A stretch of 64,000 nt of DNA from NCBI RefSeq assembly GCF_900111645.1, contig NZ_FOHQ01000001.1, positions 443,468 through 507,467 on the forward strand, read 5' to 3'. The notes under the pieces are model-generated. The model was not told where the DNA came from and did not search any database. It was given only the letters and a program-made list of their open reading frames with translations. Origin of the DNA: Methanococcoides vulcani. GTDB lineage: Archaea > Halobacteriota > Methanosarcinia > Methanosarcinales > Methanosarcinaceae. Made by a program: the position numbers and the translations under genes. Numbering within the stretch: position 1 is the first letter of the stretch; each line of letters opens with the position of its first letter. This document shows, piece after piece, positions 1 to 18,861 of the stretch.

Positions 1-2
1 CA

Positions 3-806: not shown

Positions 807-815
807 GGTGAGATC

Positions 816-1400: not shown

Positions 1401-1424
1401 CGTTCAGGTCAGATATCTTTTTTT
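1392..1424 (+). terminator. Hairpin-plus-T-run terminator after the FmdE-domain gene
   Basis: Perfect 10-bp stem GATATCTGAC / GTCAGATATC (1392-1401 and 1408-1417) with loop GTTCAG, followed at once by seven T (1418-1424). The TGA stop of the gene lies inside the left arm. Archaeal RNA polymerase mainly needs the T-tract, so the strong hairpin may also protect the transcript 3' end. It separates this gene from convergent uvrA. Confidence 0.75.
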
Positions 1425-1463
1425 AACCCTTTAATTTTTTTAACGATCTTTAAGTTTTTCAAC

Positions 1464-4289
1464 TTATTTTTTGAGCACTCTTTTCAGGAATTCGCCTGTA
1501 TAGGATGCTTTGCTCTTTGTTATTTTCTCGGGTGTACCTTCAGCAATGATCCTGCCACCACGTTCTCCACCTTCAGGACCCAGGTCGATCACCCAGTCTG
1601 CTGTCTTGATAACATCAAGGTTGTGTTCTATCACAATGACTGTATTGCCTGCATCCACAAGTCGCTGGAGCACATCAAGTAACTTGTTCACATCGTCAAA
1701 GTGCAGCCCGGTTGTGGGCTCGTCAAGAATGTAAACTGTCTTTCCGGTAGAACGCCTACTAAGTTCTGTTGCGAGCTTCACACGCTGGGCTTCTCCTCCT
1801 GACAGGGTTGTCGATGACTGTCCAAGCTTGATGTAGCCAAGACCAACATCGTAGAGCGTCTGCAGCTTGTTCTTTATCTTTGGAATGTTCTCAAAGAACT
1901 CCAGTGCTTCCTCTACGGTCATGTCAAGTACATCAGCGATGGTCCTGTCCTTGTAGGTGACCTCAAGTGTCTCACGGTTGTATCGCTTCCCGTGGCAGAC
2001 CTCACAGGGCACATAAACGTCAGGCAGGAAGTGCATTTCAATTGTGATTATACCGTCGCCTGAACAGGTCTCACACCTGCCTCCGCGTACATTGAAGCTG
2101 AACCTTCCAGGCTTGTATCCGCGTGCTTTTGATATCTTTGTCTGTGCAAAGAGTTCCCGTATGGGTGTGAACAGGTTAGTATATGTGGCCGGATTGGAGC
2201 GCGGTGTCCTTCCGATAGGTGACTGGTCGATGGTGATGACCTTGTCGATCTGGTCAAGACCCTTGATATCCTTGTATCTCCCGGGTCTGTCCCTTGCACG
2301 ATGCAATTTCTGGGCAAGCACCTTATTGAGGGTCTCATTGATGAGGGTACTTTTTCCTGAACCTGATACACCTGTGACACAGGCCATGACACCGAGCGGG
2401 AATTCCACATCTATGCCTTTGAGGTTGTTCTGTGATGCACCCTTGAGGAGCAGTTTGCCAATGGGCTTGCGCCTCTTCTTTGGCACTGCTATCTCAAGTT
2501 TTCCGCTCATGTACTGGCCGGTAAGTGAATCCGGGTGTGCCATTATCTCTTCAGGCGTGCCTTCTGCTACAACCTCTCCTCCGTGGATACCGGCTCCTGG
2601 TCCCATGTCAACCACATGATCGGAATTGAGAATTGTCTCTTCATCGTGTTCCACGACCACTACCGTGTTGCCGATGTCACGAAGATGTTTCAATGTATTA
2701 ATAAGCCTGAGATTATCCCTCTGGTGCAGCCCTATGCTTGGCTCATCCAGAATATACAGCACGCCCATGAGACTGGATCCGATCTGTGTTGCAAGCCTGA
2801 TACGCTGGGCTTCTCCTCCTGAAAGGGTCGCTGCCGAGCGGCTCAGTGTAAGATAATCAAGCCCTACGTCCATGAGGAAACCAAGTCTTGCCTTTATTTC
2901 CTTGAGGATCAGCCTTGCAATGGAATATTCACGAGGGGTAAGAGTTGGCTCCAGTTCTTCAAAGAAATGCAACGCAGTCTCTACGGACATTTGTGTGACC
3001 TCAATGATGTTACTGTCATTGATGCTCACAGCAAGGCTGGCAGGTTTTAGCCTGTTGCCATTACAAACTGTACAGGGTTTTGTGGTGATATATTTCCTGA
3101 GCCTGTCCTTCGTGTTCTCGGACTCTGTATTATCATATGTCTTTGATATGTTGGAGATCACTCCCCGGAAGCGTCCCTTGTGCTTCCACATCCCACCATT
3201 CTTGCCGATATGCACGAAATCGATCATTTCGGTGGTGCCGTTGAAGATAATGTCCTTGTGTTTCTGGTCAAGTTCCTCGAAGGGAACGTCCAGTGAGAAC
3301 CCGAAACGCTGTCCCACAGACTCCAGTGCCTGCATGTAGTAACCGTCTTTCTTGTTCCAGGTCTCGACCGCCCCTTCTCTCAACGTAAGGGTGGGGTCAG
3401 GAACGATAAGTTCGGGGTCGAACTCCATTGAAGTGCCAAGCCCATGGCATTCTTCACAGGCACCCTGGGGGCTGTTGAAAGAGAATGCAGAAGGTTCCAT
3501 TTCCTCAAAACCAATTCCGCAATCCGTACATGCCAGGTTTTCACTGAATACCATCTCTTCGCCGTCAAGCACATGGACCATCAATGTCCCGCCACTTTTC
3601 TCAAGTGCGGTTTCCACGGAATCCGACAATCTTTCTTCCATCCCTTTCTTGATGACAAGCCGGTCTACTACCACCTCGATGTTGTGTTTGTAGTAGCGTC
3701 CCAGTTCGATGGATTCGGCATCATCCAGTGCAACGATCTCTCCATCTACCCTTGCACGTGCAAAGCCTTCTCCCCTCAGGTCTGTGAGCAGCTTCTTGTA
3801 CTCTCCTTTACGTTCACGCACAAGAGGTGCAAGGATGTGAACCTTTGAACCTTCCTCTATTTTCATGATGCTGTCAACGATCTGGTCAACACTCTGGGGC
3901 TCGATTACCTTCCCACATTTAGGGCAATGCCTGATGCCTATCCTTGCATAGAGCAGCCTCAGGTAATCATATATCTCTGTCACTGTTCCCACCGTGGAAC
4001 GGGGATTCTTGCTGGTGGTCTTCTGCTCGATGGAGATCGCAGGAGAAAGTCCCTCTATGTACTCAACATCCGGTTTTTCCATCAGCCCCAGGAACTGCCT
4101 TGCATAAGCTGAAAGGGATTCAACATATCGCCTCTGCCCTTCTGCATATATGGTATCAAAAGCAAGGGATGATTTTCCTGATCCGCTGAGACCTGTGATG
4201 ACTATCAGTTTATCACGGGGTAGGACTAGGTCGACATTCTTGAGGTTGTGCTCTTTAGCACCTTTGACGATTATATTTTTGAGGGACAT
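1464..4289 (-). CDS. uvrA: Excinuclease ABC subunit A
   Basis: 941 residues, the normal UvrA length. UvrA is the damage-sensing ATPase that loads UvrB during nucleotide excision repair in the cytoplasm. Two ABC ATPase modules are visible: Walker [10 protein letters not shown] near residue 33 and GVSGSGKST near 640, each followed by an SGGEAQR signature and an ILDEP Walker B. Zinc-binding Cys pairs (CPKCGK, CTDCG/CEECHG and [16 protein letters not shown]) lie in the inserted domains. Start ATG at 4289. In archaea uvrABC is a bacterial import found mainly in mesophilic methanogens and haloarchaea. uvrB and uvrC are not next to it here. Convergent with the FmdE-domain gene. Confidence 0.97.
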
Positions 4290-4554
4290 GGTTTCTGGAA
4301 GGGAGTGTTTTCAGGATAAGTTCGGATTTGAGATATTTGGGTGAGAGGATTAAAGGTTTGCTGTTGAGGTGAAATTTATGTGGTTCATTAGTTGTTCTTA
4401 ATTTTGTACTCACACACTTAAATATACTCTTCAATAGGGTCTGCCAAAAGCTTTGGTTTTGTAGTTTTTGAGCTAATTGACAGCAATTCTCATTTCTCTT
4501 TAATTGAACAAATATGTCTGGACCAGGGGTGATCTTCCTGATCCGCGAATCCGA

Positions 4555-5661
4555 TCACTTTCTCAAACTTGCCGATAAAAAGAGTCCGATAATGAGCATT
4601 ATTGAGGTAAAACCCGGTGTTTGATTTTCTGTCCCGATTTCCTCCTGTGTTCCATTATCAATTATTACAAGATTCCCGTCTTCATCTAAATAGGCTTCAT
4701 CTCTGGTATAGGTTATAACATTTCCATCATCATCTATCACGCAGATATCTTCTTCATCTGATGATGGTGTGGTATCTTCGACCCCTATGTCTTCGACAGC
4801 ATTCTCCTCCCATTCAAATACTACGGGCACTTCATTTATGCCTGCTTCCTGTTCAAAGTGCCTGTCTATCATCTGATATATTTCATCAATTACGGATTCG
4901 TTTACTTTTTCCGGGTTTTCTAAGTCCATACCCACACTCAGATATCCATTAATGCTGACCCCATAACCTATTACAGGTCCATCAGATTCAGCAAAGAACG
5001 GGTCAAGTTCTCTATCCATGTAATAGCCAAGCTGATCCGTCCATCTTCTTTTTTCACTATCCTGATTAATTACAGGCATTGTCCCATAGGCAGCTATGAA
5101 CGATGAGCTGCTTTTGGCTTCCTCAAATATCTCAGGACCATACTCAGGAAGGGGTATGCTCTCATCTTCCATTGGCCACATAAATACCACGGATATACCA
5201 CTAATCCCCTCTTCCCGCTCACAGTGATCATCGATCTTCCGATAGATCTCATCAATTCTTGACCCATTCATTTTTCCCTGCTGATCAGAGTTTATACCTA
5301 CAATCAAAAATTCACTATTGGTGCCGATGCTTCTTATGGAACTATCAATTGTGTATGCCGGTGCATTTATGGAAAGAGATAGCCAGCAGTCATGAACTGA
5401 ATTTTCCCACTCCCAATCAATTGTTTTTGGGAAAGTTCCTCTGCTGGCTATGAACAATGGATCACTCTTGTACTCTTCAAAACGGGAATCGGGGTTATTT
5501 GAATCAGTGATCCTATCAGTATGTTCTGGATCATCTAATTCGTTATCATCGTTATTTACAGTATCAAAGGATCCTCCCCATGCAAATCCCACGAGCATAA
5601 TGCCTATTATCAATATGCTCACTCCAGTCTTTATAATAATTCTCATTATTCTATACCCCAA
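4555..5661 (-). CDS. Secreted surface protein with two related domains and a PGF-CTERM anchor
   Basis: 368 residues. An N-terminal hydrophobic segment (about residues 9-29) looks like a signal peptide. Two related extracellular units follow, each opening with a (A)xxGTxP motif and closing with an IDEIYxxID...EE/QEAGI...VVFxW motif, at about residues 70-175 and 185-285, so the protein arose by internal duplication. The end reads NQTPGFTSIM, a hydrophobic stretch and LRK, which is the PGF-CTERM sorting signal that archaeosortase A processes. The protein is therefore likely to be attached to membrane lipid at the cell surface. No enzyme motif is seen and no family is recognised. It stands alone, between uvrA and the divergent superoxide reductase gene. 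Confidence 0.75.
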   Translation of the reverse strand: MGYRIMRIIIKTGVSILIIGIMLVGFAWGGSFDTVNNDDNELDDPEHTDRITDSNNPDSRFEEYKSDPLFIASRGTFPKTIDWEWENSVHDCWLSLSINAPAYTIDSSIRSIGTNSEFLIVGINSDQQGKMNGSRIDEIYRKIDDHCEREEGISGISVVFMWPMEDESIPLPEYGPEIFEEAKSSSSFIAAYGTMPVINQDSEKRRWTDQLGYYMDRELDPFFAESDGPVIGYGVSINGYLSVGMDLENPEKVNESVIDEIYQMIDRHFEQEAGINEVPVVFEWEENAVEDIGVEDTTPSSDEEDICVIDDDGNVITYTRDEAYLDEDGNLVIIDNGTQEEIGTENQTPGFTSIMLIIGLFLSASLRK

Positions 5662-5807
5662 TTAAAAATCCATTTTAAACTAAAAGAACTTTTAATGTCT
5701 ATCTGGCAATAAAGCTTTGGATTTCCAGATCTCCTCAATCTAAATCTTTAGTGCTGTCATCTCAAGGTTCCCGTTAAGAATATCACACACAACCAGAATG
5801 TAATATC

Positions 5808-6236
5808 ATGGAATTTGCTGAGATCATAGGGTCTGAAGACACAAATAATGCCGATGACCGGTCAAAAGAAAGGCACATCCCCACCATCGAAGTACTCAGG
5901 GATCACGATGATACAGGGAATGACTACATCCATGTTGTTGTGGGGGAAAATGTGAAACATCCAAACACCCCTGAGCACCATGTCGAATATATTGAACTGT
6001 ATGGTCGAACCAAGATGATGGACACTGTCACCATCGGAAGAGCAACCTTCGGTCCGGGGGTGAAACCGGATGCTATGTTCGGGCTTGTGAATTTCGGTAA
6101 GTACAGGGAATTTTGTGCTATCGCATACTGCAACGTCCATGGGGTATGGCAAAACTGCATAGAGATACGAGAGGAACTCAGGCTGACGGCAGGTTGCAGA
6201 AGGGAAAAGTGTTTGCAGGAAGGATTCGGGGTATAA
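5808..6236 (+). CDS. Superoxide reductase (neelaredoxin/desulfoferrodoxin iron-binding domain)
   Basis: 142 residues, a single SOR domain. It reduces superoxide to hydrogen peroxide at a mononuclear His4Cys iron site, a common defence in strict anaerobes. The ligand set can be read directly: His23 (ERHIP), His51 and His57 (KHPNTPEHH), Cys108 and His111 (YCNVHG). The N-terminal desulforedoxin Cys4 domain is absent, as in neelaredoxin-type enzymes. The usual loop EKHxP reads ERHIP, so the catalytic lysine is arginine. The C-terminus adds about 20 residues with two more Cys (130, 135). Monocistronic; divergent from the PGF-CTERM protein gene. Confidence 0.85.
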   Translation: MEFAEIIGSEDTNNADDRSKERHIPTIEVLRDHDDTGNDYIHVVVGENVKHPNTPEHHVEYIELYGRTKMMDTVTIGRATFGPGVKPDAMFGLVNFGKYREFCAIAYCNVHGVWQNCIEIREELRLTAGCRREKCLQEGFGV

Positions 6237-6281
6237 ATATTAAAAATAGAAGTTTAAGGTTTAAAGTCTAGAAGTTAATAT

Positions 6282-7130
6282 TTAAATCTCGATTTCCACC
6301 TCATATACCTCTTCCACATTCTCCTTGTGAATTTTCCAGAATGGTTCTTCACCATGTTCTTCCACAAGCTTCAATGTCCTTCGGGGAATCGTTTTTGGTC
6401 CCAGTACGGCCCCCGGTCTTTCAGGGTCATCGATATAATCGGTCTCCATCATGAACCGCGTTCCCTCTTCAAGGGCCTGCTCGATTGCCCCCTTTCCTGC
6501 CAACACACCTGGGAAGATGCCCAGCTTCTCACAAACGTCTACAAGAGGGGGCGCGTAATGCTTGACCACCTTATTTAGCCGGATGCCTGTTTTCTTGGCT
6601 CTCTCTGTGATATCGACCAGTTCCGGTTCCTCAACACTCTCGGTGTGCAGCTGGATAGCACAGCCTTGGTCCTTTGCAAGCATGAAACCGTGTTCCATGA
6701 TGGCATTGGATGCATCCCATATCTCTTCTGAGACCGGGTAGTGTGGGCGTCCACTTTTTAATCCTACAGCAAGGCCTTCATCGACGTACTTTGCAGCTAT
6801 CTCAAGACCGCTCTTCATAAGTTCAACAGCTCTGTCAAGTTCCATGCGTTCGGTGAGTTTGGTGATCTCAGCTGGATGGACACCGAGTACCGGGAATGCC
6901 TTCACGCCGGTCTCATTGATCTGCCTGGCAAGGTCGATGGTCTCATCAAAGACGATCCTGTAATCTTCTGGCTTTGTGACTTCCACGCCGATGGTCCAGG
7001 TGGGTTTGGTAACAAGAATAATGTGGGTTCCCCCTACATTCTGGAACTCTTTGACAGCTTTCAGTCCCTTTGCACGGGGGTCGATGTGCATGTGCTCATC
7101 GGTGATGGGGATCTTTGGTGACGGGTTCAT
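6282..7130 (-). CDS. TatD-related metal-dependent hydrolase
   Basis: 282 residues, amidohydrolase superfamily, of the archaeal TatD-like group seen in methanogens. Visible metal-site elements are DEHMHID at residues 11-17, a Glu/Lys segment GLKSGRPHYP near 122-131, QLHTES near 159, the KVVKHY His near 189 and METDYIDDP near 228-236. TatD enzymes are often 3'-5' nucleases or deoxyribonucleases, but the substrate of this archaeal branch is not established. Encoded alone and convergent with superoxide reductase. Confidence 0.82.
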   Translation of the reverse strand: MNPSPKIPITDEHMHIDPRAKGLKAVKEFQNVGGTHIILVTKPTWTIGVEVTKPEDYRIVFDETIDLARQINETGVKAFPVLGVHPAEITKLTERMELDRAVELMKSGLEIAAKYVDEGLAVGLKSGRPHYPVSEEIWDASNAIMEHGFMLAKDQGCAIQLHTESVEEPELVDITERAKKTGIRLNKVVKHYAPPLVDVCEKLGIFPGVLAGKGAIEQALEEGTRFMMETDYIDDPERPGAVLGPKTIPRRTLKLVEEHGEEPFWKIHKENVEEVYEVEIEI

Positions 7131-7328
7131 GTGTTACTAGATGTGGGGATGGCAGATAATGTTACTGTCTTTTCGCGACATTGTCATTTTAGAAGGAGGT
7201 TGATGGTGAGGTATGCCTGAACCAGCGATACTATCAGGGTTGAGATCAGTATGAGCAGTGAGATTGTTGTCTTGAATTCATCCCGACCTTTCCTTATGAA
7301 ATACATCTAGGCTGTAAATGGAAAGATA

Positions 7329-7511
7329 ATGCTAAGGCTCAGGATCAATGAGAAATTACTTACCGAAGAGACACTTCATGAAAAAGCTCAATGGACACCC
7401 TATAAAAACCAGAAAATAACAGGTTGGCCGGAGATGACAATGAGCCGCGGAGAGATCATTGTGCAAAATGACGAATTCCTGGGTAAAAAGGGATGGGGTC
7501 TCTTTATATAG
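7329..7511 (+). pseudogene. C-terminal remnant of a dihydropyrimidinase/hydantoinase gene
   Basis: An open stretch of 60 codons. From about residue 12 it reads like the last 50 residues of a dihydropyrimidinase (D-hydantoinase): LHEKAQWTPYKNQKITGWP, then MTMSRGEIIV and a final FLGKKGWG. No other part of the roughly 460-residue enzyme is upstream; 7131-7328 has no homologous frame I can see. It is therefore a 3' remnant. It lies 55 bases before the foreign-looking isocitrate dehydrogenase gene and may have arrived with it. No function is expected. Confidence 0.65.
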
Positions 7512-7545
7512 AATAAAGCGCTTCGCTTCGATAAAATGTTATTAA

Positions 7546-9792
<2,247 letters not shown>

Positions 9793-9813
9793 TTTTATTG
9801 TGGAAACAAAAGG

Positions 9814-9841
9814 AAAGCCCCGGTTTCGGCCGGGGCTTTTT
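9814..9841 (+). terminator. Bacterial-style intrinsic terminator after icd
   Basis: Perfect 10-bp inverted repeat AAAGCCCCGG (9814-9823) and CCGGGGCTTT (9830-9839) around loop TTTCGG, running into a T-tract. The A-tract/GC stem/T-tract form is classic for bacteria and unlike the weak T-tract terminators expected here. It supports transfer of the icd gene together with its own terminator. Confidence 0.85.
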
Positions 9842-9867
9842 AGTATCTAAATAAGCAATGTGATTAG

Positions 9868-10023
9868 GGAGCTAAAGCTTCCGCTTCTGCTTGGGTTGGG
9901 AAGACAGATGCTATCTTCAAGGCAACAGAGGATGTCATTGGAGAAGGCAAGTATCTTACCTACGATATGGGTGGAGATGCATCCCTTAGCGGAATGACCG
10001 ATGCTATCATTGCAAAACTGTAA
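9868..10023 (+). pseudogene. C-terminal remnant of an isocitrate/isopropylmalate-dehydrogenase-family gene
   Basis: About 51 codons without a start, preceded by two in-frame stops. The reading ends in ATEDVIGEGKYLTYDMGG, then DASLSGMTDAIIAKL and TAA. The T-Y-D-x-x near the end followed by (F/M)TDAII(A/E)xx matches the C-terminus of the dimeric IDH family. The rest of the gene is missing; its place is taken by the monomeric icd and its terminator. I read it as the tail of a displaced resident IDH. The length is too short to separate IDH from isopropylmalate dehydrogenase with certainty. Confidence 0.55.
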
Positions 10024-10201
10024 AACAATATTATACGTAAGTAAGTCCGACTCTGGCGAGAATGGGACTTGAGGTGTATGGGGTCTGCGGATCCTTTACA
10101 CTATTCTTTTCTTTTACACTTCTTTAGCGGATTGCACCGTTATTTGAGTTTCGAATTTGACGAAAAGACCTTATTTTTAGGTCATGCTGTTTTCTGATCA
10201 A

Positions 10202-10312
10202 GCATAGTTCATGAACCTTGTTTATGTGGTTGAGAGGGATGATACTCATCTGTTGAGAAAGAAGATTATTGAAATGTCCTATAACGAATGGAAGAAGATT
10301 TACTTGAGCTAA
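10202..10312 (+). pseudogene. cas1 fragment B (C-terminal linker and start of HTH region)
   Basis: After an in-frame TAG the frame reads FMNLVYVVERDD, then LLRKKIIEMSYNEWKK, then a short divergent tail and TAA. The start aligns with the point where the larger Cas1 copy (13432-14442) loses similarity (EFMKLVYVERHIKNLL there). The SYNEWKK motif is what precedes the C-terminal helix-turn-helix in casposase-type Cas1. It continues logically in fragment C at 10966-11113. Confidence 0.55.
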
Positions 10313-10413
10313 TTGATTATGTTGATATCACCATAAGCTGTGCATCAAAGACTATAAGAGATGTTATCAAGCCTCTTGCACAGGTTGGTACTAGATACAT
10401 TCCACTAAAATAA
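10288..10413 (+). CDS. Short open frame of unknown meaning overlapping cas1 fragment B
   Basis: 41 codons (MEEDLLELIDYVDI... ending in GTRYIPLK) in another frame from fragment B. No family recognised. It may be the edge of DNA inserted into cas1, since cas1 similarity stops here and resumes near 10966. Low support as a gene. Confidence 0.2.
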   Translation: MEEDLLELIDYVDITISCASKTIRDVIKPLAQVGTRYIPLK

Positions 10414-10633
10414 TTAACATTGACTTAATAAAAAGGTGTGGGAAGGTTTTTGTTGAGACAATTTAACCTAAAAAATCAACAATAAACTTTGTCCATCCCC
10501 CTATCAGTTGTCATTTCTGAGATCAGAATCAGGTATTCTGTAAAGTTAAATTTAGAAGTATATTCTTGCAGAGACCACTATTACCAATATTTTAAATACT
10601 AATCCTGCTTGATGTTAATGGGGGTTATAAAGA

Positions 10634-10936
10634 ATGTTATTTATGATTAGCCTTGAGCATACACCTGAACAGTGTTTTGGAAGAGAAGAATACAAGGAAG
10701 AAATGAAGCAATGGGCTGGGGAAATGAGAAGCTCAGCAGAAAAACTGGGCATAAAAATAAATGGAGCATACGTTTGCCCTAACGAGCATATTTTCTATTT
10801 CATCCTCGAATCAGATAGTTTGAAGGCAATTTCTGAATTCTTCAAACCACCGATGTTAACGCATCATACCGGAAAGATCTCTCCTATAATGACAATAGAG
10901 GAGGCAACAGAAGGGACTTCATTGCTAGAAAAATAA
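10634..10936 (+). CDS. Small ferredoxin-fold-like protein of unknown function
   Basis: 100 residues: a beta strand (LFMISLEHTP), an acidic helix (EEYKEEMKQWAGEM), a second half with HIFYFILES and a C-terminal HHTGKISPIMTIEEA segment. The layout suggests a small alpha/beta barrel of the DUF3303/GYD type; this is a fold guess, not a firm match. A TATA-like TTTTAAATA near 10590 and a G-rich stretch (GGGGGTTATAAAG) before the ATG support expression. It lies between two pieces of a broken cas1 gene, so it either inserted there or was joined by rearrangement. Confidence 0.6.
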   Translation: MLFMISLEHTPEQCFGREEYKEEMKQWAGEMRSSAEKLGIKINGAYVCPNEHIFYFILESDSLKAISEFFKPPMLTHHTGKISPIMTIEEATEGTSLLEK

Positions 10937-10965
10937 ACTTTAGTTTACAAAGGTTAGAGGATGCT

Positions 10966-11113
10966 ATGGGGGAAAATAGGGTTCTCTAAAGGTACTTTGC
11001 ACTACATGAAGCAGAATGCCAAGAATGAGAAGCCGTTTACTCTCAATGCTCTGTTAGGGAGAGATTGGAGAGTTGGGGAGAAAAAGCTTCTGTTGTTGAA
11101 TGATGGATAAAAT
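10966..11113 (+). pseudogene. cas1 fragment C (C-terminal helix-turn-helix)
   Basis: The frame reads W-GKIGFSKGTLHYMKQNAKN followed by EKPFTLNA, then decays and stops at TAA 11111-11113. GFSKGTLHYMK is the C-terminal helix-turn-helix of casposase-type Cas1 and follows directly on the SYNEWKK of fragment B in an intact protein. No start codon or upstream domain is present. It ends 29 bases before the 3' end of the beta-helix protein gene. Confidence 0.6.
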
Positions 11114-11142
11114 ATTTCAAAAAAGATCAAAGAAGGGTTAGA

Positions 11143-12642
11143 TTACCCTTCTGAATTCTGTATCAGTTCAATGATACTTTCTGCCTCATTGATTATGTAG
11201 TTAGCCTCCTCATCGGTTAGACTTCCTTTTTCCACCATTTTCTCAACAACTTCAATAAATTCTTCAAGGTTTTCGATAGCTTCCTCATTGTCGCCTTTGT
11301 CGAGTTTGTTGATTACGGCATCGAGTTTTGCATTAAGAATCTTTGTGGTAGAACTGGATACATCCAGACCATTCACATACTCTTTGAGAGTTTCTAGTTC
11401 CTCAGTTGGGGTAGGTGTTTCAATAATAACCGGACAGAACATCAGTGGATAGCTGTCATTACCATATGGCGTGTCACCAATACCGTCACCATCGACGTCG
11501 TTGCTCGAGTTGTTGGCGTAGTCGTTGGCGTAATAGTTACCTGTGTAGTTCACGTAGTTGCTACCATTGTAGGTATAGGTCACCATCTCAGTTGAGTTCC
11601 AGATGTTGGTACCATCTTCAGCAACGTTATTCGTGTTGTTGAAGCAGTTGTTGTAGATGATGTTGTTGCTGGACAAGTACAGAGAGATGCCATAATAATT
11701 GTCCGACATCGTGTTGCTGGTCAGGTTGTTGTTGCTGGAAGAATACAGATTGATGCCGTTACCGTTGTTCAATGCCGTGTTGCTGGTCAGTGTGTTGTTG
11801 CTGGATTCCACAAGAAAGATGCCGTCTCTGTTGTTCGAGTTTGCAGTGTTGCTGGTCAGCGTGTTGTTGTTGCTGGACAAGTACAGATAGATGCCACGGT
11901 CATTGTCCGATGCAGTGTTATTTGTCAGCGTGTTGTTATTGTTCAAAGAATCCAGGTAGATACCGCCCCAGCCATTGTTCGACGCCGTGTTGCTGATCAG
12001 CGTGCTGTTGCTGGCATTACGCAGATAGATGCCGTGTCCGGTATTGTTCGATGCCGTGTTGCTGGTCAGGTTGTTGCTGTTGGAGTTCCCCAATTTGATG
12101 CCGTTACCGTTGTCCGACGCCGTGTTGCTGGTCAGCGTGTTGTTGCTGGAATCATCCAGATGGATGCCGAAGTCGTTGTCCGTCGCCGTGTTGCTGGTCA
12201 GCGTGTTGTTGCTGGAATCATCCAGATGGATGCCGTAGTTGTTGTTTAATAAGACGTTGTTAGTGACTGTACATCCTTCAACTCCGTCAAGATATATTCC
12301 AGCAGCAGTTGTGGTACCAAGTACACAAAAACCATCGATAGTTACATTGTTTGCAGTCACGTTGAAGGTATCAACGTCCGGAGCGTCAGCCAAAACAATA
12401 GCATGACTCGAAGATTTGATTGTTATCTCCTTGTCCACAACCACATGTTCTACATATATAGCATCCAGAATGGAATCTCCTGTATGGACAATAATCGTGT
12501 CACCGTTGCTTGCAGCATCTATGGCATCCTGGATAGAATCTCCAGGGTACACATTCCACACATCTGCTGATGCAGTTCCTACGGTCATTAAAGCTAAAGC
12601 CATTCCAAAACAGATCAGTATACTTTGTTTAATTCTCATCAT
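11143..12642 (-). CDS. Secreted parallel beta-helix (NosD-type) repeat protein, shorter copy
   Basis: About 499 residues from ATG at 12642 (MMRIKQSI), preceded by GGTGGTG; the frame continues 10 codons upstream but lacks a good ribosome site. The signal peptide ends at ASA. A VYPGDSIQDAID opening is followed by about ten beta-helix turns with core NNTLTSNTAxxNxxGIxLxxSS, each about 24 residues (roughly 11650-12330). An Asn-rich turn and a DxDGDGIGDTPY calcium-like loop follow. The end is a charged helical domain without membrane segment. NosD/pectate-lyase-like helices often bind carbohydrate or act as adhesins; the exact role is unknown. Cargo-like position in element 1, paralogue of the gene at 14963-18544. 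Confidence 0.85.
   Translation of the reverse strand: MMRIKQSILICFGMALALMTVGTASADVWNVYPGDSIQDAIDAASNGDTIIVHTGDSILDAIYVEHVVVDKEITIKSSSHAIVLADAPDVDTFNVTANNVTIDGFCVLGTTTAAGIYLDGVEGCTVTNNVLLNNNYGIHLDDSSNNTLTSNTATDNDFGIHLDDSSNNTLTSNTASDNGNGIKLGNSNSNNLTSNTASNNTGHGIYLRNASNSTLISNTASNNGWGGIYLDSLNNNNTLTNNTASDNDRGIYLYLSSNNNTLTSNTANSNNRDGIFLVESSNNTLTSNTALNNGNGINLYSSSNNNLTSNTMSDNYYGISLYLSSNNIIYNNCFNNTNNVAEDGTNIWNSTEMVTYTYNGSNYVNYTGNYYANDYANNSSNDVDGDGIGDTPYGNDSYPLMFCPVIIETPTPTEELETLKEYVNGLDVSSSTTKILNAKLDAVINKLDKGDNEEAIENLEEFIEVVEKMVEKGSLTDEEANYIINEAESIIELIQNSEG
11650..12330 (-). repeat. Tandem coding repeats of beta-helix turns
   Basis: About ten units of 69-72 bases, each containing GTGTTGCTGGTCAGCGTG on the plus strand (the NTLTSNTA core read in reverse). 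Some units are nearly identical, for example around 12120-12165 and 12185-12230, which shows recent unit duplication. These are protein repeats, not a CRISPR array. Confidence 0.8.
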
Positions 12643-12901
12643 TTTCACCACCAAATAATTAAGAATATACATACCGAATTTTTATTATGTATATAAGTGT
12701 TCGACTTTTTCAGTTAAATGTGTTTGGAACTGTTTGAAAGTTAACGGCGTTAACGGGCATCTATTGAATAAGTTATGTCTATTACAATAATTTGTCAAAA
12801 CTGAATAGTAGTAATAAAATTGCTTTCCAAATTTTAGCTAGGAATATAATATTTTGAATTGCACATACATAATTAAATTTTGAGAGTTCGGTTTTTTACA
12901 G

Positions 12902-12914
12902 TTACCTATATCCC
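12902..12914 (-). repeat. Right terminal repeat of element 1
   Basis: TTACCTATATCCC, identical to bases 18739-18751 of the right terminal repeat of element 2 and inverted relative to the left terminal repeat at 12927-12944. It is followed directly by the target duplication GACTTAATGTGC. Confidence 0.65.
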
Positions 12915-12915
12915 T

Positions 12916-12927
12916 GACTTAATGTGC
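12916..12927. repeat. Target-site duplication copy between the two elements
   Basis: GACTTAATGTGC, matching GACTTACTATGC at 18753-18764 with two differences, and extendable to 16 bases through GGGG on both sides. It lies exactly between the right end of element 1 and the left end of element 2. Confidence 0.65.
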
Positions 12928-12944
12928 GGGGATATAGGTAAGTC
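12927..12944 (+). repeat. Left terminal inverted repeat of element 2
   Basis: CGGGGATATAGGTAAGTC, an exact 18-base inverted match to 18736-18753. Similarity stops at the next base. Confidence 0.8.
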
Positions 12945-13009
12945 GTAAAAATGCCACTCTTCCATTAAATAAGAAAAGTTTGTAAAAAAGAGTAAATCGA
13001 TTTACCTTG

Positions 13010-13426
13010 TTATTTTTCCTCAAGCTTTTCATCGCGTTTAATGTCTAAAGTTCCCTTTTCCCCAAATTTCCATACTACAAATGGGCCATTATATGAGGAG
13101 GCTCCTTTACCAACAGCAACTTCGTATCCCATTTCAGAAACTATGTGCAAATATTTTGAGATGACGTTATGGAAAACCTTTTTTGGATCATAGTCTACCC
13201 AATGAGCAGAAATCCAAAGTTTATTTTTGCCTACAATCACATGACATTGACCACACAAAGTAATTAAATTATTAATTTCGTGTGATTTTGATTCTTTAAA
13301 GGGCGTTATATGATGGACATGCAATTTTTCAGTAGATTCACAAATCTTGCATTTATTGAGATCCCTTTCTAATGCCAACTTTCTTTGTTTGTACCATGAT
13401 TTATTATTTGAATTAGTTCTCTCCAA
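13010..13426 (-). CDS. HNH endonuclease
   Basis: 138 residues from TTG at 13426. It carries Cys26-x2-Cys29, His38-His39 in HVHHITPF, Asn52/53 and Cys58-x2-Cys61-His62, which is a complete HNH core with its zinc-binding Cys pairs. The C-terminal 70 residues match no domain I recognise. HNH nucleases cleave DNA, and one accompanies Cas1 in most casposons. Its start lies 5 bases from the first codon of the divergent cas1 frame, leaving no room for a cas1 promoter; the frame also stays open some codons upstream into cas1, so the true start is uncertain. Confidence 0.85.
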   Translation of the reverse strand: MERTNSNNKSWYKQRKLALERDLNKCKICESTEKLHVHHITPFKESKSHEINNLITLCGQCHVIVGKNKLWISAHWVDYDPKKVFHNVISKYLHIVSEMGYEVAVGKGASSYNGPFVVWKFGEKGTLDIKRDEKLEEK

Positions 13427-13431
13427 AAAGG

Positions 13432-14442
13432 ATGGATGTTGATAGCATTGTTGTATATGGAAGAAGTGGATCTTTGAGCCTTGAAGCTATCAGATGGCTG
13501 ATTAAGCACAATGTACAAATCACTATGTTGGACTGGAACGGCAAGTTACTGACGACAATGCTTCCTTCTGAAAGTACCAATGTTAAGACAAAGTTCGCAC
13601 AGTACCATGTTTATGAAGATCAGGATACAAGGGTAAACCTTGCTAAAAAGTTCATTGAAGCCAAAATAGCCAAATCGGAAGCTGTCCTTGATTACCTTAA
13701 ACAAAGGTATCCTGAAGTCGAATACGATTTTACTGATGATAAGGCCAGACTTGAGAATGCCACATCCATAAGGGAAATACTTGGTGTTGAAGGTGGAATT
13801 GCATGGAAGTACTGGAATGAATACGCAAAAGCTATTCCTGAACAATACGATTTCAAGGTAAGAACAGATAATTTCAGAAGGGCAAATGGAGCAGGAGATC
13901 AAGTCAATGTCATGCTCAATTATGGCTATGCTCTGCTTGAATCTGAATGCCTGAGAGCCATAAATTCAGTTGGTCTTGATGCTCATGTTGGTTTCCTTCA
14001 TGAGATGAATCAGAGCAAGTACAGTCTTGCTTATGATCTCCAAGAACCTTTCAGGTTCATTGTGGATCTTGCTGTTATGAACCTGATTGAAAAAGGAGCT
14101 ATGGATAACAAGGACTTTATCAGGACTGAAAGTTTTTCATTGAGACTTAAACCAACAGGAGCAAGGAAGGTTACTGAAGAGTTCAATGCTATGATGAATG
14201 GGAAAGTTGAGTACAGGAAGAAGAATAGTTCTTGGGGATCTGTACTGTTGCTGAAGGCAAGAGAGCTTAGCCATCATCTTGTTGGAAAGAGGAAAGTGGT
14301 TGAGTTCATGAAGCTTGTTTATGTTGAAAGGCATATCAAGAATCTTCTTCATCGATCTTACTATAAAACTTCGAATTGTTGTAATAATCGTGTCTATCAA
14401 TCTCATTTTAAGACTTCCACCTTACATCATTTACCCTTTTAA
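13432..14442 (+). CDS. cas1: Casposase-type Cas1, truncated at both ends
   Basis: 336 residues. Cas1 is a DNA integrase; stand-alone Cas1 of this type serves as the transposase of casposons. Catalytic residues are present: Glu120 in LGVEGG, His190 in GFLHE and Asp202 in LAYDLQEPF. The N-terminal beta domain is missing: similarity runs only from FSPKRMDVDSIVVYGRSG, whose first residues lie upstream of the ATG behind an in-frame TAG. The C-terminal helix-turn-helix is also missing: after EFMKLVYVE the frame becomes unrelated. The lost C-terminus resembles fragments at 10.2 and 11.0 kb. No cas2 and no CRISPR repeats are nearby. Probably inactive or a remnant. Confidence 0.85.
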   Translation: MDVDSIVVYGRSGSLSLEAIRWLIKHNVQITMLDWNGKLLTTMLPSESTNVKTKFAQYHVYEDQDTRVNLAKKFIEAKIAKSEAVLDYLKQRYPEVEYDFTDDKARLENATSIREILGVEGGIAWKYWNEYAKAIPEQYDFKVRTDNFRRANGAGDQVNVMLNYGYALLESECLRAINSVGLDAHVGFLHEMNQSKYSLAYDLQEPFRFIVDLAVMNLIEKGAMDNKDFIRTESFSLRLKPTGARKVTEEFNAMMNGKVEYRKKNSSWGSVLLLKARELSHHLVGKRKVVEFMKLVYVERHIKNLLHRSYYKTSNCCNNRVYQSHFKTSTLHHLPF

Positions 14443-14962
14443 TGTTTGATCCCCACTACAACATGTACACCCTCTAAAGACATCAAGAGTAGTACAATAA
14501 TTGAGGAATTGTGTTGGAATATTTACTCCTTGGACAGCAGACACATCAAAAAAAATATGGTTGTACATGACAAGTTCTCATTAAAAAAAATTGAGTTTGA
14601 TAACATTTAATCTTAAATTCTTGATTTTTGTGTACACGTCTCACACAACCAGACTGCCCATAAAATTTAGCAAAATTAAAGTTTGGATTTACAAATTTCT
14701 CAATGATTCAAACAGATACTCAAACAAATTTTTAATTTTACCAAGATTTGAGAGAACTCCTGCAGCAAGTATTCCAATTATTAGAATTAGACCTTGGTTT
14801 GTTGCAGCATAATCATTAAGTGGTGTTACAATACAAATATAAAAATTGGCTAAAATAAGACTTACAGTTAAAGTGGGAAGAAATTGAAGAATACAAACAA
14901 TCCCATCCAAACAGCACATAATCGTTTTTGAGTATGTGGAATCTGAAGTGATTCCACTTAAC
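14443..14962. other. AT-rich decayed stretch between cas1 and the cargo gene
   Basis: About 520 bases of very AT-rich sequence. The only plausible gene is a 76-codon frame on the minus strand (14689-14919) with two hydrophobic segments. No cas1 C-terminus, polymerase or transposase frame was recognised. Confidence 0.5.
14689..14919 (-). CDS. Possible small membrane protein in element 2
   Basis: 76 residues with two hydrophobic segments (about 8-30 and 42-58: LILIIGILAAGVLSNLG) and a positively charged tail. No family recognised. It could be a fragment of a larger membrane protein. Weak support, apart from a continuous frame within AT-rich DNA. Confidence 0.35.
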   Translation of the reverse strand: MCCLDGIVCILQFLPTLTVSLILANFYICIVTPLNDYAATNQGLILIIGILAAGVLSNLGKIKNLFEYLFESLRNL

Positions 14963-17900
14963 TCAATCCCGCTTTCTTCTCAGGAAAAGCACAATCGCAA
15001 TTCCAAGCACAACTACTGTCAGTAAAAGAAGGGTGGTTAGCACCGGATATTCTTCGACTGAAATGTAACCTATCTTTGTCTCAGTGTGACTTCCATTCAG
15101 ATTACTGGCATTCAATGATACATCATAGATTCCAGGCATATCGTAGGTGTGAATCGGATTCCGAGTAGTGTAATCAACTATGCCATCTCCATTCACATCC
15201 CATTCCCATGAGGTTGCATTGCTTGAGAAATCTGTAAACTGAACTGTCATTGGAGCTTTGCCTGAAGTAACATTGGCAGTGAAATCAGCCACAGGAGGCA
15301 GTAAAAACGAATATACTCCTTCATCTGTTACCTCAACGGTATAAGGCTGGTCTGGTATATCACCAACAGTGACCTCTTTGCATAAGATTATGCTAGTGCC
15401 TCTTGTCGAGACCTCAAGGGTATAGGTATCTGTGGGCTCTGCATCTGGCTCTGGAATTATTTTTATTTGGTAATTCCCTGGTTTTGGAGCTGGAATTAAT
15501 ATGCGGTCATCTGAATCACCATCCCCATTTATGTCGGTTTCCGTATAAGTTGCTCCAGGGATCTGATTTGTTTGTTTATTGATTATTAATCCTTCTGGAT
15601 CCACGACTTCTAGATCTACAGGACATGTGCCAGTGATTGTTAGTGTATCTGCAAGTGGCAGGAAGTCGATATTGTTTGAATGAATAGCATATTTATTTAG
15701 GGGTGAATCACAGAAACCATCATCATTCGTATCTACATTTGTCTGGCTGAATCCGTCGTTGTAAGGAGTTGCCCAGAAGTTGCCGCCAAGATTATGACCA
15801 CCCATGATATTCGTGCCTTCGGTCTCTATGGTGTTCCAGTCATTGCCTGTGTTGGTCCCCCTAAAGTCAGTATTGTCAGTGTTGTTGAAGTGGTTGTTGT
15901 AGATGAGATTATCATTGGAATGGTACAGATAGATGCCGTCGTCGTTGTTCAACACCGTGTTGCTGGTCAGGTTGTTGTTGCTGGAATCTCTCAGATAGAT
16001 GCCGTTGTAGTTGTTCAACACCGTGTTGCTGGTCAGGTTGTTGTTGTTGCTGGAACTACGCAGATTGATGCCGAAGAGATTGTCCGACACCGTGTTGCTG
16101 GTCAGGTTGTTGTTGCTGGAATCATTCAGAACGATGCCGTTATCATTGTTCGACACCATGTTGCTGGTCAGCGTGCTGTTGCTGGAAGACCACAGATAGA
16201 TGCCTGTTTTACCACTACCTGAAGCGCCGCTCACCTTGAACCCGCTGATGGTCACCCAGTCAGCGGTAACCTCGAAGACATGATCGCTGGAGGATGCGGC
16301 GGTGACATGCGTGACGGCAGCGCCATCGGTTGAAGTGATGTTCAGTTGCTTGTTCACGTTCACATTCTCATAGTACGTGCCTGGATACACAAGGATGGTA
16401 TACCCATTAAATGTAGTTGGAGCTTCCACAGCATCCTGTATTGATGTATAATCTGCGTCCGGATATTGTATTAAATCGTCAGCGACTGTGATGGTGGCTG
16501 CTGGTGCAGCCAGAGGCAGATAGTCCACGTGACCCGATGCAATCCAATAGGGTACGTCGCATATATCATTACCTCCCACATCAACATCAACACAGGTCTG
16601 GCTGAACCCATCGTTGTAAGGTGTTGCCCAGTAGTTCCCACCCAGATAAGGTCCTTCAACAATGTTTGGACCTGAGGAATTGGTGGTATTCCAGACATTG
16701 TTAGTATTGGTCCCGGTAAAAAAAGTATTGGCAGTGTTGTTGAAGTGGTTGTTGTAGATGAAATTGTTGCTGGAAGAAGACAGACGGATGCCGCTGCCGG
16801 TATTGTTCAACACCTTGTTGCTGGTCAGGTTGTTGTTGCTGGATGCCTCCAGATAGATGCCGCGGTAATTGCCCGATGCCGTGTTGCTGGTCAGCGTGTT
16901 GTTGCTGGAAGATACCAGAAGGATGCCGTAATAGTTGTCCGACGCCGTGTTGCTGGTCAGGTTGTTGTTGGTGGAATACCAAGACAGCCAGATGCCTGCT
17001 TTATTAGTATCTGTAGCGCTGCTCACATTGAAACCGGTGATGGTCACCCAGTCAGCGGTAACCTCGAAGACATGATCACCGGGGGATGCGGCAGTGACAT
17101 GCGTGACGGCAGCGCCACCTGTTGAGGTGATGTTCAGTCGCTTGTACACGTCCACGTTTTCTGTATACGTTCCCGGGTAGACAATGATAGTATCCCCATC
17201 AGTTGTAATTACATTATCTATAGCAGCCTGTATCGTGGTGTAATCTGCATCTGGGCAATCATCTCTGAGATCGTCCACAGTGATTGTCTTTGGCATATAA
17301 AGCGGCAAGTAGTCTATATTGTTCGCATCGAGTAGTACGTATGGCCAATCACAGAATCCATCTCCATCTAAATTAACAACAAGCTGGCTGAACCCTCTAC
17401 CATCCGGTTTTGCCCAGCAGTTCCCACCAAGGAAAGGACCGCCAATGATGTTTGGACCTGAGGAATTGGTGGTGTTCCAGACGTTTCCGAACCTGTGAGT
17501 AGAAATATAAGCGTTGTTTGTATTATTGAAATAATTGTTGTAGATGATGTTATAGTAGTTGTATCTCCTCAGATAGATGCCGTAATCATCGTTGTACGAT
17601 GCAATATTATTGATCAGCGTGTTTTCGCTGCAGGATTCATCTAGATAGATGCCGCAATAGTTGTTCGATGCATTGTTATTGTTCAGCTCGTTGGCGTTGG
17701 AATACTGCAGAAGGATGCCGTTTGCGTCGTTGTTCGATGCGGTGTTGTTGTAGATGATGTTATCGTAGTTGGATTCCTGCAGAAGGATGCCGTTCCCGTC
17801 GTTGTACGATGCAATATTATTATTCAGCGTATTGTAGAATGTACCCTCCAGATGGATGCCGCTATCTTTGTTCGAGTTTGCATTGTTGTTGTTCAGCTCG

Positions 17901-18544
17901 TTGGCGTTGGAATGGTACAGATAGATGCCGTCGTCGTTGTTCAACACCGTGTTGCTGGTCAGGTTGTTGTTGCTGGAATGAGACAGACGGATGCCGTACT
18001 TGTTATCCGAAGCTATATTATTGCTCAGCTCGTTGACGTAGGAATCCTCCAGATGGATGCCGTAATAGTTGTACGATGCATTGTTATTGTTCAGCTCGTT
18101 GTAGTAGGAACCCGTCAGATAGATGCCGTAATAGTTGTACGATGCATCGTTATTACTAATATTACAGTTCTCAAACAACCCGGCAAGATATATTCCAGAA
18201 TATGGCCAACCAAAATTAGCACCTGTTACATTAAAGCCACTAATAGTCACATAATCCGCAGTCACATGGAATACATGATCAGTTGAAGAGGCAGCCTGAA
18301 CAATAGTATCACTAGGATTCCCAGATTGTGATTTTATGGTCAACTCCTTGTCCACATCTACGTTCTCTGTATAGGTTCCTGGATAAACAATGATTGTATT
18401 CCCGTCAGTTGCCGCGTTTATGGCACTCTGGATAGAATCCCCAGGGTACACATGTATCTCAATTGCTGCTACTGTACCTACGGCCATTACCAAAAAAACA
18501 AAAACCATTGCAAAACAAATCAGTAGACTTTGTCTAATTCTCAT
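14963..18544 (-). CDS. Giant surface protein: three NosD beta-helix modules, PKD domain, membrane anchor
   Basis: 1193 residues. A signal peptide (MRIRQSLLICFAM...) is followed by three modules, each starting with a VYPGTYxENVxVxK / DHVFxVTADxVTIxGF segment (about residues 30-110, 415-515 and 670-770) and continuing in Asn-rich beta-helix turns. Calcium-like DxDGDGFCD loops end the modules. Then come a beta-rich region (975-1090), a PKD domain (PPVADFTANV... near 1095) and a C-terminal membrane helix with RRKRD. It should sit on the cell surface with its C-terminus in the membrane; an adhesive, sheath or sugar-binding role is plausible but not shown. GGTGGG precedes the ATG. It occupies most of element 2. 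Confidence 0.87.
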   Translation of the reverse strand: MRIRQSLLICFAMVFVFLVMAVGTVAAIEIHVYPGDSIQSAINAATDGNTIIVYPGTYTENVDVDKELTIKSQSGNPSDTIVQAASSTDHVFHVTADYVTISGFNVTGANFGWPYSGIYLAGLFENCNISNNDASYNYYGIYLTGSYYNELNNNNASYNYYGIHLEDSYVNELSNNIASDNKYGIRLSHSSNNNLTSNTVLNNDDGIYLYHSNANELNNNNANSNKDSGIHLEGTFYNTLNNNIASYNDGNGILLQESNYDNIIYNNTASNNDANGILLQYSNANELNNNNASNNYCGIYLDESCSENTLINNIASYNDDYGIYLRRYNYYNIIYNNYFNNTNNAYISTHRFGNVWNTTNSSGPNIIGGPFLGGNCWAKPDGRGFSQLVVNLDGDGFCDWPYVLLDANNIDYLPLYMPKTITVDDLRDDCPDADYTTIQAAIDNVITTDGDTIIVYPGTYTENVDVYKRLNITSTGGAAVTHVTAASPGDHVFEVTADWVTITGFNVSSATDTNKAGIWLSWYSTNNNLTSNTASDNYYGILLVSSSNNTLTSNTASGNYRGIYLEASSNNNLTSNKVLNNTGSGIRLSSSSNNFIYNNHFNNTANTFFTGTNTNNVWNTTNSSGPNIVEGPYLGGNYWATPYNDGFSQTCVDVDVGGNDICDVPYWIASGHVDYLPLAAPAATITVADDLIQYPDADYTSIQDAVEAPTTFNGYTILVYPGTYYENVNVNKQLNITSTDGAAVTHVTAASSSDHVFEVTADWVTISGFKVSGASGSGKTGIYLWSSSNSTLTSNMVSNNDNGIVLNDSSNNNLTSNTVSDNLFGINLRSSSNNNNLTSNTVLNNYNGIYLRDSSNNNLTSNTVLNNDDGIYLYHSNDNLIYNNHFNNTDNTDFRGTNTGNDWNTIETEGTNIMGGHNLGGNFWATPYNDGFSQTNVDTNDDGFCDSPLNKYAIHSNNIDFLPLADTLTITGTCPVDLEVVDPEGLIINKQTNQIPGATYTETDINGDGDSDDRILIPAPKPGNYQIKIIPEPDAEPTDTYTLEVSTRGTSIILCKEVTVGDIPDQPYTVEVTDEGVYSFLLPPVADFTANVTSGKAPMTVQFTDFSSNATSWEWDVNGDGIVDYTTRNPIHTYDMPGIYDVSLNASNLNGSHTETKIGYISVEEYPVLTTLLLLTVVVLGIAIVLFLRRKRD

Positions 18545-18735
18545 TATTTCCCACCATCAAATAATTAAGAAGATATCTACAAAATTTATTCTATATTTAA
18601 ATGTGGTTTTTCAAAGTACTTATATTTTTTTTTTGGAAACTGGATTAGTAACAATTGTTACTAATTTTAGGCATAGATTATATTTATTTTACACAAGAAT
18701 TCTAGCTTTACAAAAATCTAGCGTACAAAAAAATA
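18545..18735. promoter_or_regulatory. Upstream region of the giant surface protein gene within element 2
   Basis: AT-rich. The 35 bases next to the start codon (CACCATCAAATAATTAAGA on the plus strand) resemble the equivalent bases before the element 1 cargo gene (CACCACCAAATAATTAAGA), so both cargo genes share their control region. A TATA-like TTTAAATATA read on the minus strand lies near 18592-18602. Confidence 0.45.
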
Positions 18736-18753
18736 GACTTACCTATATCCCCG
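18736..18753 (-). repeat. Right terminal inverted repeat of element 2
   Basis: GACTTACCTATATCCCCG, exact reverse complement of 12927-12944. Confidence 0.8.
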
Positions 18754-18764
18754 ACTTACTATGC
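18753..18764. repeat. Target-site duplication copy on the tRNA side
   Basis: GACTTACTATGC, partner of 12916-12927. Its last bases (TGC, then GGGG) are the 3' end of the tRNA-like sequence read in reverse. Confidence 0.65.
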
Positions 18765-18787
18765 GGGGGGTCGGATTCGAACCCTCG
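18762..18787 (-). pseudogene. 3' end of a tRNA-Leu-like gene, rest missing
   Basis: On the minus strand it reads TTCGAATCCGACCCCCCGCA: T-loop, 3' T-stem and acceptor strand. An acceptor end CCCCCGCA fits archaeal tRNA-Leu genes that begin GCGGGGG. The 5' T-stem strand does not pair fully (GAGGG against CCGAC) and no GCGGGGG partner occurs within the next 180 bases, so this is a remnant of at least 20 bases, not a working tRNA. Confidence 0.6.
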
Positions 18788-18861
18788 AATTCCTTCGAAG
18801 AAAATCCAATATAAGTTTCGTTCAAAGACTTTAAATCGTACAGAACGACTATTATTATAGG

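Follow-up and report, generated by a model that had tools for sequence, protein, structure and literature searches.

Casposons have been defined as self-synthesizing elements that rely on Cas1 (Krupovic 2014), and the described systems closest to the locus presented here are those of family 2, which include MetBur-C1 to C3 of M. burtonii and the M. mazei casposons at tRNA-Leu. The accessible sections of the 2014 paper (PMC4046053) report terminal repeats in all casposons except MetBur-C1 to C3, place those three adjacent to each other, and draw a parallel between casposon tandems and Tn7 islands. Further papers report that the M. mazei casposase requires CGCA and bp 12-17 upstream (PMC6977970) and that tandem formation by a mini-casposon took place in vivo (PMC10359463); a published scenario for the origin of CRISPR invokes polymerase loss as a step (PMC6452270).

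The DNA analysed here, called the window, is a stretch of 64,000 nucleotides from Methanococcoides vulcani (C5:443468-507467 of genome G000, whose 15-contig draft assembly comprises 2.31 Mb at a rated completeness of 99.95%). At 12902-12941 it contains a palindrome consisting of two 13-bp terminal repeats that face inward over 14 bp (+ strand: 12902-12914, TTACCTATATCCC; 12915-12928, TGACTTAATGTGCG; 12929-12944, GGGATATAGGTAAGTC). The left arm is the terminal repeat of a distal element on the − strand (12902-12914), reading AGGGATATAGGTAA with the next base included and deviating by one mismatch from the 14-mer found genome-wide; the 14-bp target sequence between the two elements (12915-12928) reads CGCACATTAAGTCA on the − strand. 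The right arm (12929-12944, + strand) is the left terminal repeat of a leader-proximal element of 5.8 kb (12929-18751) and the perfect complement of the right terminal repeat of the same element, which was identified as a repeat match on the − strand at 18736-18751 (GACTTACCTATATCCC); when 12927-12944 is compared with 18736-18753, complementarity is 100% over 18 nt. Directly behind follows a second 14-bp target sequence at 18752-18765 (CGACTTACTATGCG; on the − strand CGCATAGTAAGTCG), 11/14 identical to 12915-12928, and at 18762-18798 a tRNA-Leu(UAA)-like 3′ fragment on the − strand (37 nt, 34/37; variable arm, T arm and acceptor 3′ strand) that forms the leader-like target. The sequence-only reading took the target duplication to recur at 18753 and the site to be a tRNA; the sequence there matches only approximately (10/12, or 11/14 when a 14-mer is compared), and the tRNA site is the 3′ fragment, ARAGORN detecting no tRNA anywhere in the window. 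At up to two mismatches, the duplication 12-mer has five matches in the window against 5.55 expected, which is chance level; the near-copy carries weight because of its placement between repeats and because exact copies occur in related arrays.

The leader-proximal element contains an HNH ORF (13010-13426, − strand, 138 aa, TTG start; Pfam HNH, 1.9e-10), a casposase (cas1) pseudogene (13417-14433, + strand) and, as cargo, the gene for a 1193-aa NosD/beta-helix and PKD protein (14963-18544, − strand). The pseudogene covers residues 38-374 of 398, with 83% identity to the intact casposase P0003 of the same genome; its final 24 residues are missing, and the place expected for the first 37 is occupied by the HNH ORF. 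This ORF has an IscB-like HNH region scoring 45.7 bits against the NCBIfam IscB model, far under the cut-off of 175, and its identity as the casposon HNH was rejected after no significant match to the MetBur-C1 HNH was obtained. Of the Cas1 and HNH genes claimed from the sequence alone, both are present, the former as a pseudogene and the latter as an HNH other than that of casposons.

On the other side of the junction, the distal element carries the gene for a 509-aa NosD/beta-helix and FIMAH protein, assigned by domain matches (11143-12672, − strand), and two cas1 remnants on the + strand detected by tblastn (10208-10309, residues 334-367, 62%; 10967-11050, residues 361-388, 82%). A DUF3303 ORF (10634-10936) lies between the remnants, as if inserted in cas1. 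Further left are a monomeric isocitrate dehydrogenase gene (7567-9792, Pfam) and, by eye, the apparent end of another dehydrogenase gene (about 9870-10020). The far end of the distal element was not found in a joint scan for repeat and duplication over positions 1-12880 (best, 16/26 letters), and a search with MetBur-C1 PolB returned no polB match in the window. The gene order makes the junction tail to head, in agreement with the arrangement proposed earlier.

The 14-mer GGGGATATAGGTAA occurs, at up to one mismatch, 18 times in the 2.31-Mb genome (reversed control, 1), and 85 exact copies were counted in 14 of 60 genomes, the own genome included and all 11 Methanococcoides among them (reversed control, 1), so that a chance origin of the repeat was rejected. 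On the outer side of these 85 exact ends we found 21 junctions, 44 T-loop motifs at ≥8/9, seven at 7/9, and 13 ends with neither, several of which are, by eye, apparent far element ends that close in the complement of the duplication. The opposite GGGG/CCCC arm is 12 bp away in 20 of the 21 junction ends, that of the window included, and 13 bp away in one. Besides that of the window, G000 has junctions at C9:573-612 and C9:99394-99433 and a diverged one at C9:126837/126863; in viral contigs no junction pattern was found. With 13-18 bp the repeat is very short compared with the 25-602 nt given for casposons in the accessible part of the 2014 paper (PMC4046053). It also bounds MetBur-C1 to C3, for which the 2014 paper found no terminal repeats and none are given in the accessible text of PMC4046053, PMC9939771, PMC10359463, PMC6977970 and PMC6452270.

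Exact 12/12 duplications were observed at G000 C9:96186, at M. burtonii 565957 and in G009 C107, G008 C8, G008 C9 and G013, in support of the earlier view that the middle of the palindrome is target sequence, and agreement was poor at G000 C9:131750 (6/12), G002 C3 (7/12) and M. burtonii 2277323 (10/12). The array at 565957 repeats the same 12-mer four times: a T-loop leader is followed by four elements, the fourth of which is not closed in the stretch, with TCATAACAAGTC at each step. Three casposases stand there side by side (567016-592893 of G005, which we take to be M. burtonii DSM 6242). Units with both ends visible measure 3.2 to 11.4 kb.

The T-loop motif GTTCGAATC is located outside the repeat in 51 ends (≥7/9), and in 46 of these it starts exactly 30 bp outside (−30); a shuffle control in the same stretch gave 0.08% at 8/9 and 1.2% at 7/9, and the inner side 0/85. 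The consensus of 45 aligned ends, about RRGTTCGAATC-Y-N-A-Y-CCC-Y-CGCA-YARNAAGTC, agrees at the level of sequence with what the M. mazei casposase requires. ARAGORN predicted a tRNA gene within 200 bp outside in three of the 51 ends, with the motif inside the gene in only one (G007, tRNA-Thr), so that at most ends it is a DNA motif and not part of a tRNA gene. T-stem pairing, counted without a control, involves all five positions in 5 ends, four in 20, three in 19 and fewer in 7. Two intact tRNA-Leu genes elsewhere in G000 have a diverged repeat directly behind them, and the G007 tRNA-Thr gene has a repeat in the same place. In G008:C9 and G033:C61, a tRNA gene (tRNA-Gly and tRNA-Leu) is found some 85-115 bp beyond the repeat, and a further T-loop motif stands in the interval, an arrangement resembling that of the pad units described below.

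The same loci were then compared in relatives by searching five of twelve prepared outer flanks in the genus and examining 30 of the returned rows by eye, among which no clean empty site was found. At site 1, that of the window, G000 and G004 have different element ends adjoining the identical 9 nt TAGTAAGTC, G010 has an element with a different duplication, and G007 retains part of the tRNA-like fragment without a repeat, a pattern that would point to a target passed on by descent while its occupants changed. The flank is followed by a repeat or a diverged one in 6/9 rows at site 2, 5/9 at site 3, 2/8 at site 4 and 1/2 at site 5, the own genome being included in these counts except at site 3. 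By this comparison, sites 2 and 3 would speak for old hot spots. At site 4, G004 and G001 align to the edge of the motif and do not have it, and 6/8 rows are without motif and repeat; here, the motif may have come with the element.

The junction is real, and it is in essence that of two casposon-type elements at one tRNA-derived target, a kind already known. With a probability of about 0.93, we consider that the palindrome marks where two descendants of family 2 casposons meet in a tandem array, which was built by repeated leader-side insertion at a tRNA-derived target. A Cas1-type integrase would recognise the T-loop GTTCGAATC, CGCA 8 nt later and then an A/T-rich stretch; the target would be cut with a 14-bp stagger, and insertion of an element with GGGATATAGGTAA ends would leave 14 bp duplicated. 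Each insertion would rebuild the target beside the unchanged T-loop ‘leader’ and the next could occur at the same place, the newer element pushing the older one away from the leader like spacers in a CRISPR array. In the window, the tRNA-Leu 3′ fragment at 18762-18798 would be the leader, and element 1 (12929-18751) the younger unit; the older would be element 2, to the left of 12914, where decay has gone further. The ends, near-duplications, leader, gene content and recurrence across the genus were observed directly. The cut, its stagger and the order of events would follow from this anatomy together with the published biochemistry of the M. mazei casposase. Speaking against this explanation are the agreement of the window duplications at only 11/14 positions, the poor agreement in the three other arrays named above, the broken cas1, the lack of polB in the window, the distal end that was not found and the lack of a clean empty site among the rows examined. 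Two further proposals of the sequence-only reading are borne out in the genus: the palindrome arms are outer ends of separate elements, as the same arms recur as element ends, and insertion was repeated at one tRNA-derived site, as seen in the relatives’ arrays with exact duplications.

Other readings of the palindrome can be weighed against these data. An intrinsic or bidirectional transcription terminator, with the likeness to 18736-18751 being incidental, would fit the complementary arms with 14 nt between them and the end of the HNH ORF about 65 bp to the right; we rejected this reading and give it next to no chance, since the arms mostly stand singly, as element ends, with 64 of the 85 exact copies having no opposite arm at junction spacing and 51 of those 64 lying at a fixed distance from the T-loop motif. 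It is also very improbable that the tandem arose by recombination, i.e., by tandem duplication or deletion between casposons or terminal repeats, in place of repeated targeted insertion. The window duplications do differ at 3/14 positions, and the accessible part of a review explains two adjacent Methanolobus casposons by rearrangement (PMC9939771), but neighbours are not recent copies of each other (the PolB proteins of the second and third M. burtonii elements are 79% and 87% identical to that of the first), they occur in both orientations, and in six arrays the middle sequence is repeated exactly.

The target itself may be viewed differently, with the T-loop motif belonging to the mobile unit and being brought along at most sites rather than pre-existing there. 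Of 14 non-tRNA matches to the target pattern in G000 (≤2 mismatches), 12 are followed by the terminal repeat and the other two look like chance, and the rows at site 4 that end at the motif edge or have neither motif nor repeat led us to raise our estimate for this reading a little. We still judge it unlikely: 13 of the 64 non-junction ends, several of them far ends by eye, are without the motif, site 1 has kept the motif next to occupants that differ (G000, G004, G010) and in part with none (G007), and the two G000 tRNA-Leu genes and the G007 tRNA-Thr gene with a repeat directly behind are intact.

Cas1 is encoded at four places in G000: in the window, at C9:994, at C9:96491 and, as a fragment, at C5:3308. 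By eye, broken sirtuin-like ORFs surround a cas1 fragment some 133 aa long (L043 2805-3694, G000:C5). The casposases at C9:994 and C9:96491 both comprise 398 aa with no internal stop, and the latter, P0003, aligns over all 398 residues, its putative C-terminal HTH included, with the M. mazei casposase 6opm (E 5.6e-190); the comparison with casposons drawn from the sequence alone was the right one. The element at C9:96186-99407 is composed of a repeat with one mismatch, the intact cas1, the gene for a 524-aa protein without a Pfam match and a second repeat; GCACAATACTTC is exact on both flanks, and polB is absent. Searching G000 with MetBur-C1 PolB yielded one fragment (C9:266447-267139, residues 655-885, one stop); nine of the ten other genomes of the genus have a full-length match (with four stops in G006 and at 45% identity in G001 and G010), and G003 has fragments only. 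The 212-aa casposon HTH core protein is present in 9/11 genomes of the genus and absent from G000 and G003 (E 1e-10 for G000).

As in family 2 casposons, we found full-length casposase homology (in P0003, the window copy being a pseudogene), terminal inverted repeats, a 14-bp target with CGCA and an upstream T-loop, and tandem insertion. The target duplication of about 14 bp agrees at 11/14 positions in the window and is exact in C9:96186-99407 and in five relatives’ arrays, and as to an overlap with a tRNA 3′ end, the window has only the tRNA-Leu 3′ fragment, and diverged repeats lie behind two intact tRNA-Leu genes elsewhere. Unlike family 2 casposons, G000 has a single polB fragment and no B-family DNA polymerase within an element, the 212-aa HTH core protein is absent, the window HNH is not homologous to that of MetBur-C1, the elements are short (3.2 and 5.8 kb), and only 1/51 motif ends have the motif inside an intact tRNA gene. 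Because the G000 elements lack one defining feature of the self-synthesizing casposon of 2014, we call them polymerase-less derivatives of family 2 casposons, which, judging from their sequences, would work like casposons.

Between the two G000 casposase genes, dN was 0.064 and dS 0.662 (ratio 0.10, compared with 0.07-0.08 against relatives), values that cover mostly the time before any polB loss and are no proof of present casposase function. In a tree built from 17 casposases, the two G000 copies do not pair as sisters, on weak support. The two elements of the window now have the look of relics, and their movement would need a casposase in trans, e.g., that of C9:96491 or C9:994. Many of the PolB and Cas1 fragments across the genus are C-terminal, which fits internal deletions because the 3′ ends of cas1 and polB in MetBur-C1 both lie nearest the element ends.

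We noticed a polarity in the arrays. Eight of them have a visible leader, and in seven the casposase is in the leader-adjacent element, in a sample in which most arrays were chosen for holding a casposase and several distal elements run off the stretch or contig; the eighth (M. burtonii 2277323) has fragments only in both elements. In none of the seven casposase-bearing arrays is the leader-adjacent element the more decayed one, and in six of these no more than about 55 casposase residues are left in the element that follows (two pieces spanning 334-388 in the window; 50, 46, 20, none and none in the others). In the M. burtonii array at 565957, both genes are free of stops in elements 1 and 2, element 3 has a stop in polB, and element 4 gave no match in the 4.4 kb covered. 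This order is as leader-side insertion would give, but is no proof thereof.

The cargo varies. In the intact G009:C107 element we found cas1 and polB, with a type IIG restriction enzyme in the element or beside the array (L142 2908-6087, PADLOC, E 4.8e-284). An element in G002 (C3:683965-689295, L149) has the same terminal repeats, duplications agreeing at 7/12 and no casposase match; it encodes a defence-type reverse transcriptase that includes a nitrilase-type region (PADLOC RT_III-A, E 6.1e-106; CARF-nitrilase model, residues 549-817), along with a piece of PolB interrupted by a single stop. Palindromes away from Cas1, named by the sequence-only reading as the finding that would speak against it, do occur: the junctions of G002:C3 and G003:C44 have no casposase match in the surrounding 12 kb and 3.7 kb, respectively; we did not take them as a refutation, the G002 element having the same repeats and looking non-autonomous.

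Some element ends appear to carry the target with them. Within 400 bases inward of the 85 exact ends, GTTCGAATC occurs 14 times at 8/9, compared with 5 and 4 matches in all for two control motifs; seven of the 14 are at +55 to +57 and two at +85, and behind these nine the next repeat (9/10 or 10/10) follows in five cases and not in four. A model (R1) was built from 15 such pad units aligned from the A-tract to CGCA, with the repeats excluded, and gave 63 matches in 10/11 genomes of the genus at E 0.01. Among the best 30 of the 63 matches, 15 of which are rows of the model and three more of which were known beforehand, with at least two pairs representing the same site in two genomes, a repeat (≥11/14) was present within about 30 bp upstream in 17 and downstream in 27; for the 15 of the best 30 not used in the model, the numbers were 7 and 13. 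The pad looks genus-specific, because the search of 12 genomes of other genera turned up only five matches, all weak and partial, spread over three genomes (at best 22 bits).

Among the best 30, three pads without a repeat directly behind them were seen: at G004:C3:216454, where CGCA is present and cas1 remnants lie about 2 kb further in, and at G004:C5:223176, where the pad is degenerate and cas1 and polB remnants lie further in; at G009:C147:6056 no repeat follows directly, and the same 12 bp and a repeat come again some 270 bp on. We saw no casposon that is fully intact, uninterrupted and equipped with a perfect pad; in G009:C107 the CGCA half of the pad is missing. A single repeated MITE behind ends of the GGGGTAATAGGTATCTTG type, which are present at six loci, was considered and rejected, since the loci share only about 40-120 bp, except for two near-identical ones (G003, G008) that are probably the same site. 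At these loci, a second copy of the duplication at ≥10/12 was not seen within 0.3-3 kb.

Stretches that begin with a terminal repeat and hold a complete target are present at many loci, the target being mostly occupied by another element. We read them as element ends carrying the target, in which the pad may be under selection. Tentatively, and at somewhat less than even odds, we propose that some Methanococcoides ends carry the full target (T-loop, CGCA and preferred duplication) about 56 bp inside the repeat, that insertions would bring their own landing pads, and that pads would spread and renew away from tRNA genes, with chronological arrays building there. If true, casposons alone and, in G000, elements without a polymerase would have arrived at an equivalent of the CRISPR leader-repeat unit that moves and propagates itself. 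Speaking against this proposal are the missing intact casposon with a perfect pad, the share of model rows among the best 30 matches, and site 4, which favours a motif that came with the element.

The arrays resemble CRISPR arrays in having a fixed leader, a repeat regenerated with each insertion, a Cas1-type integrase and less decayed units on the leader side, but they are not members of that class: the units are of kilobase size with ends of their own (3.2 to 11.4 kb, where a CRISPR array has short repeats and spacers of uniform short length), and they imply no crRNA. With Tn7 islands the arrays share repeated insertion at a single chromosomal position. The Tn7 transposase is unrelated to the casposase. 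The G002:C3 element, with both ends and no casposase, and others with internal deletions are like MITE-type non-autonomous derivatives, and solo terminal repeats were reportedly described in M. mazei in a 2016 paper. To us, the pads in element ends most of all, and also the graded arrays and the elements without a polymerase, are apparently new when set against the accessible parts of PMC4046053, PMC9939771, PMC10359463, PMC6977970 and PMC6452270.

Terminal repeats are now available for the M. burtonii casposons, and a mobility assay would need them. For the question of how a transposon target became the CRISPR leader and repeat, Methanococcoides provides many natural cases: the genus offers leader-anchored arrays with the least decayed unit on the leader side, a sharp in vivo motif from 51 ends and ends that carry this motif. 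An element with an intact integrase gene and without a polymerase gene matches a step in the CRISPR-origin scenario as given in the accessible text of PMC6452270.
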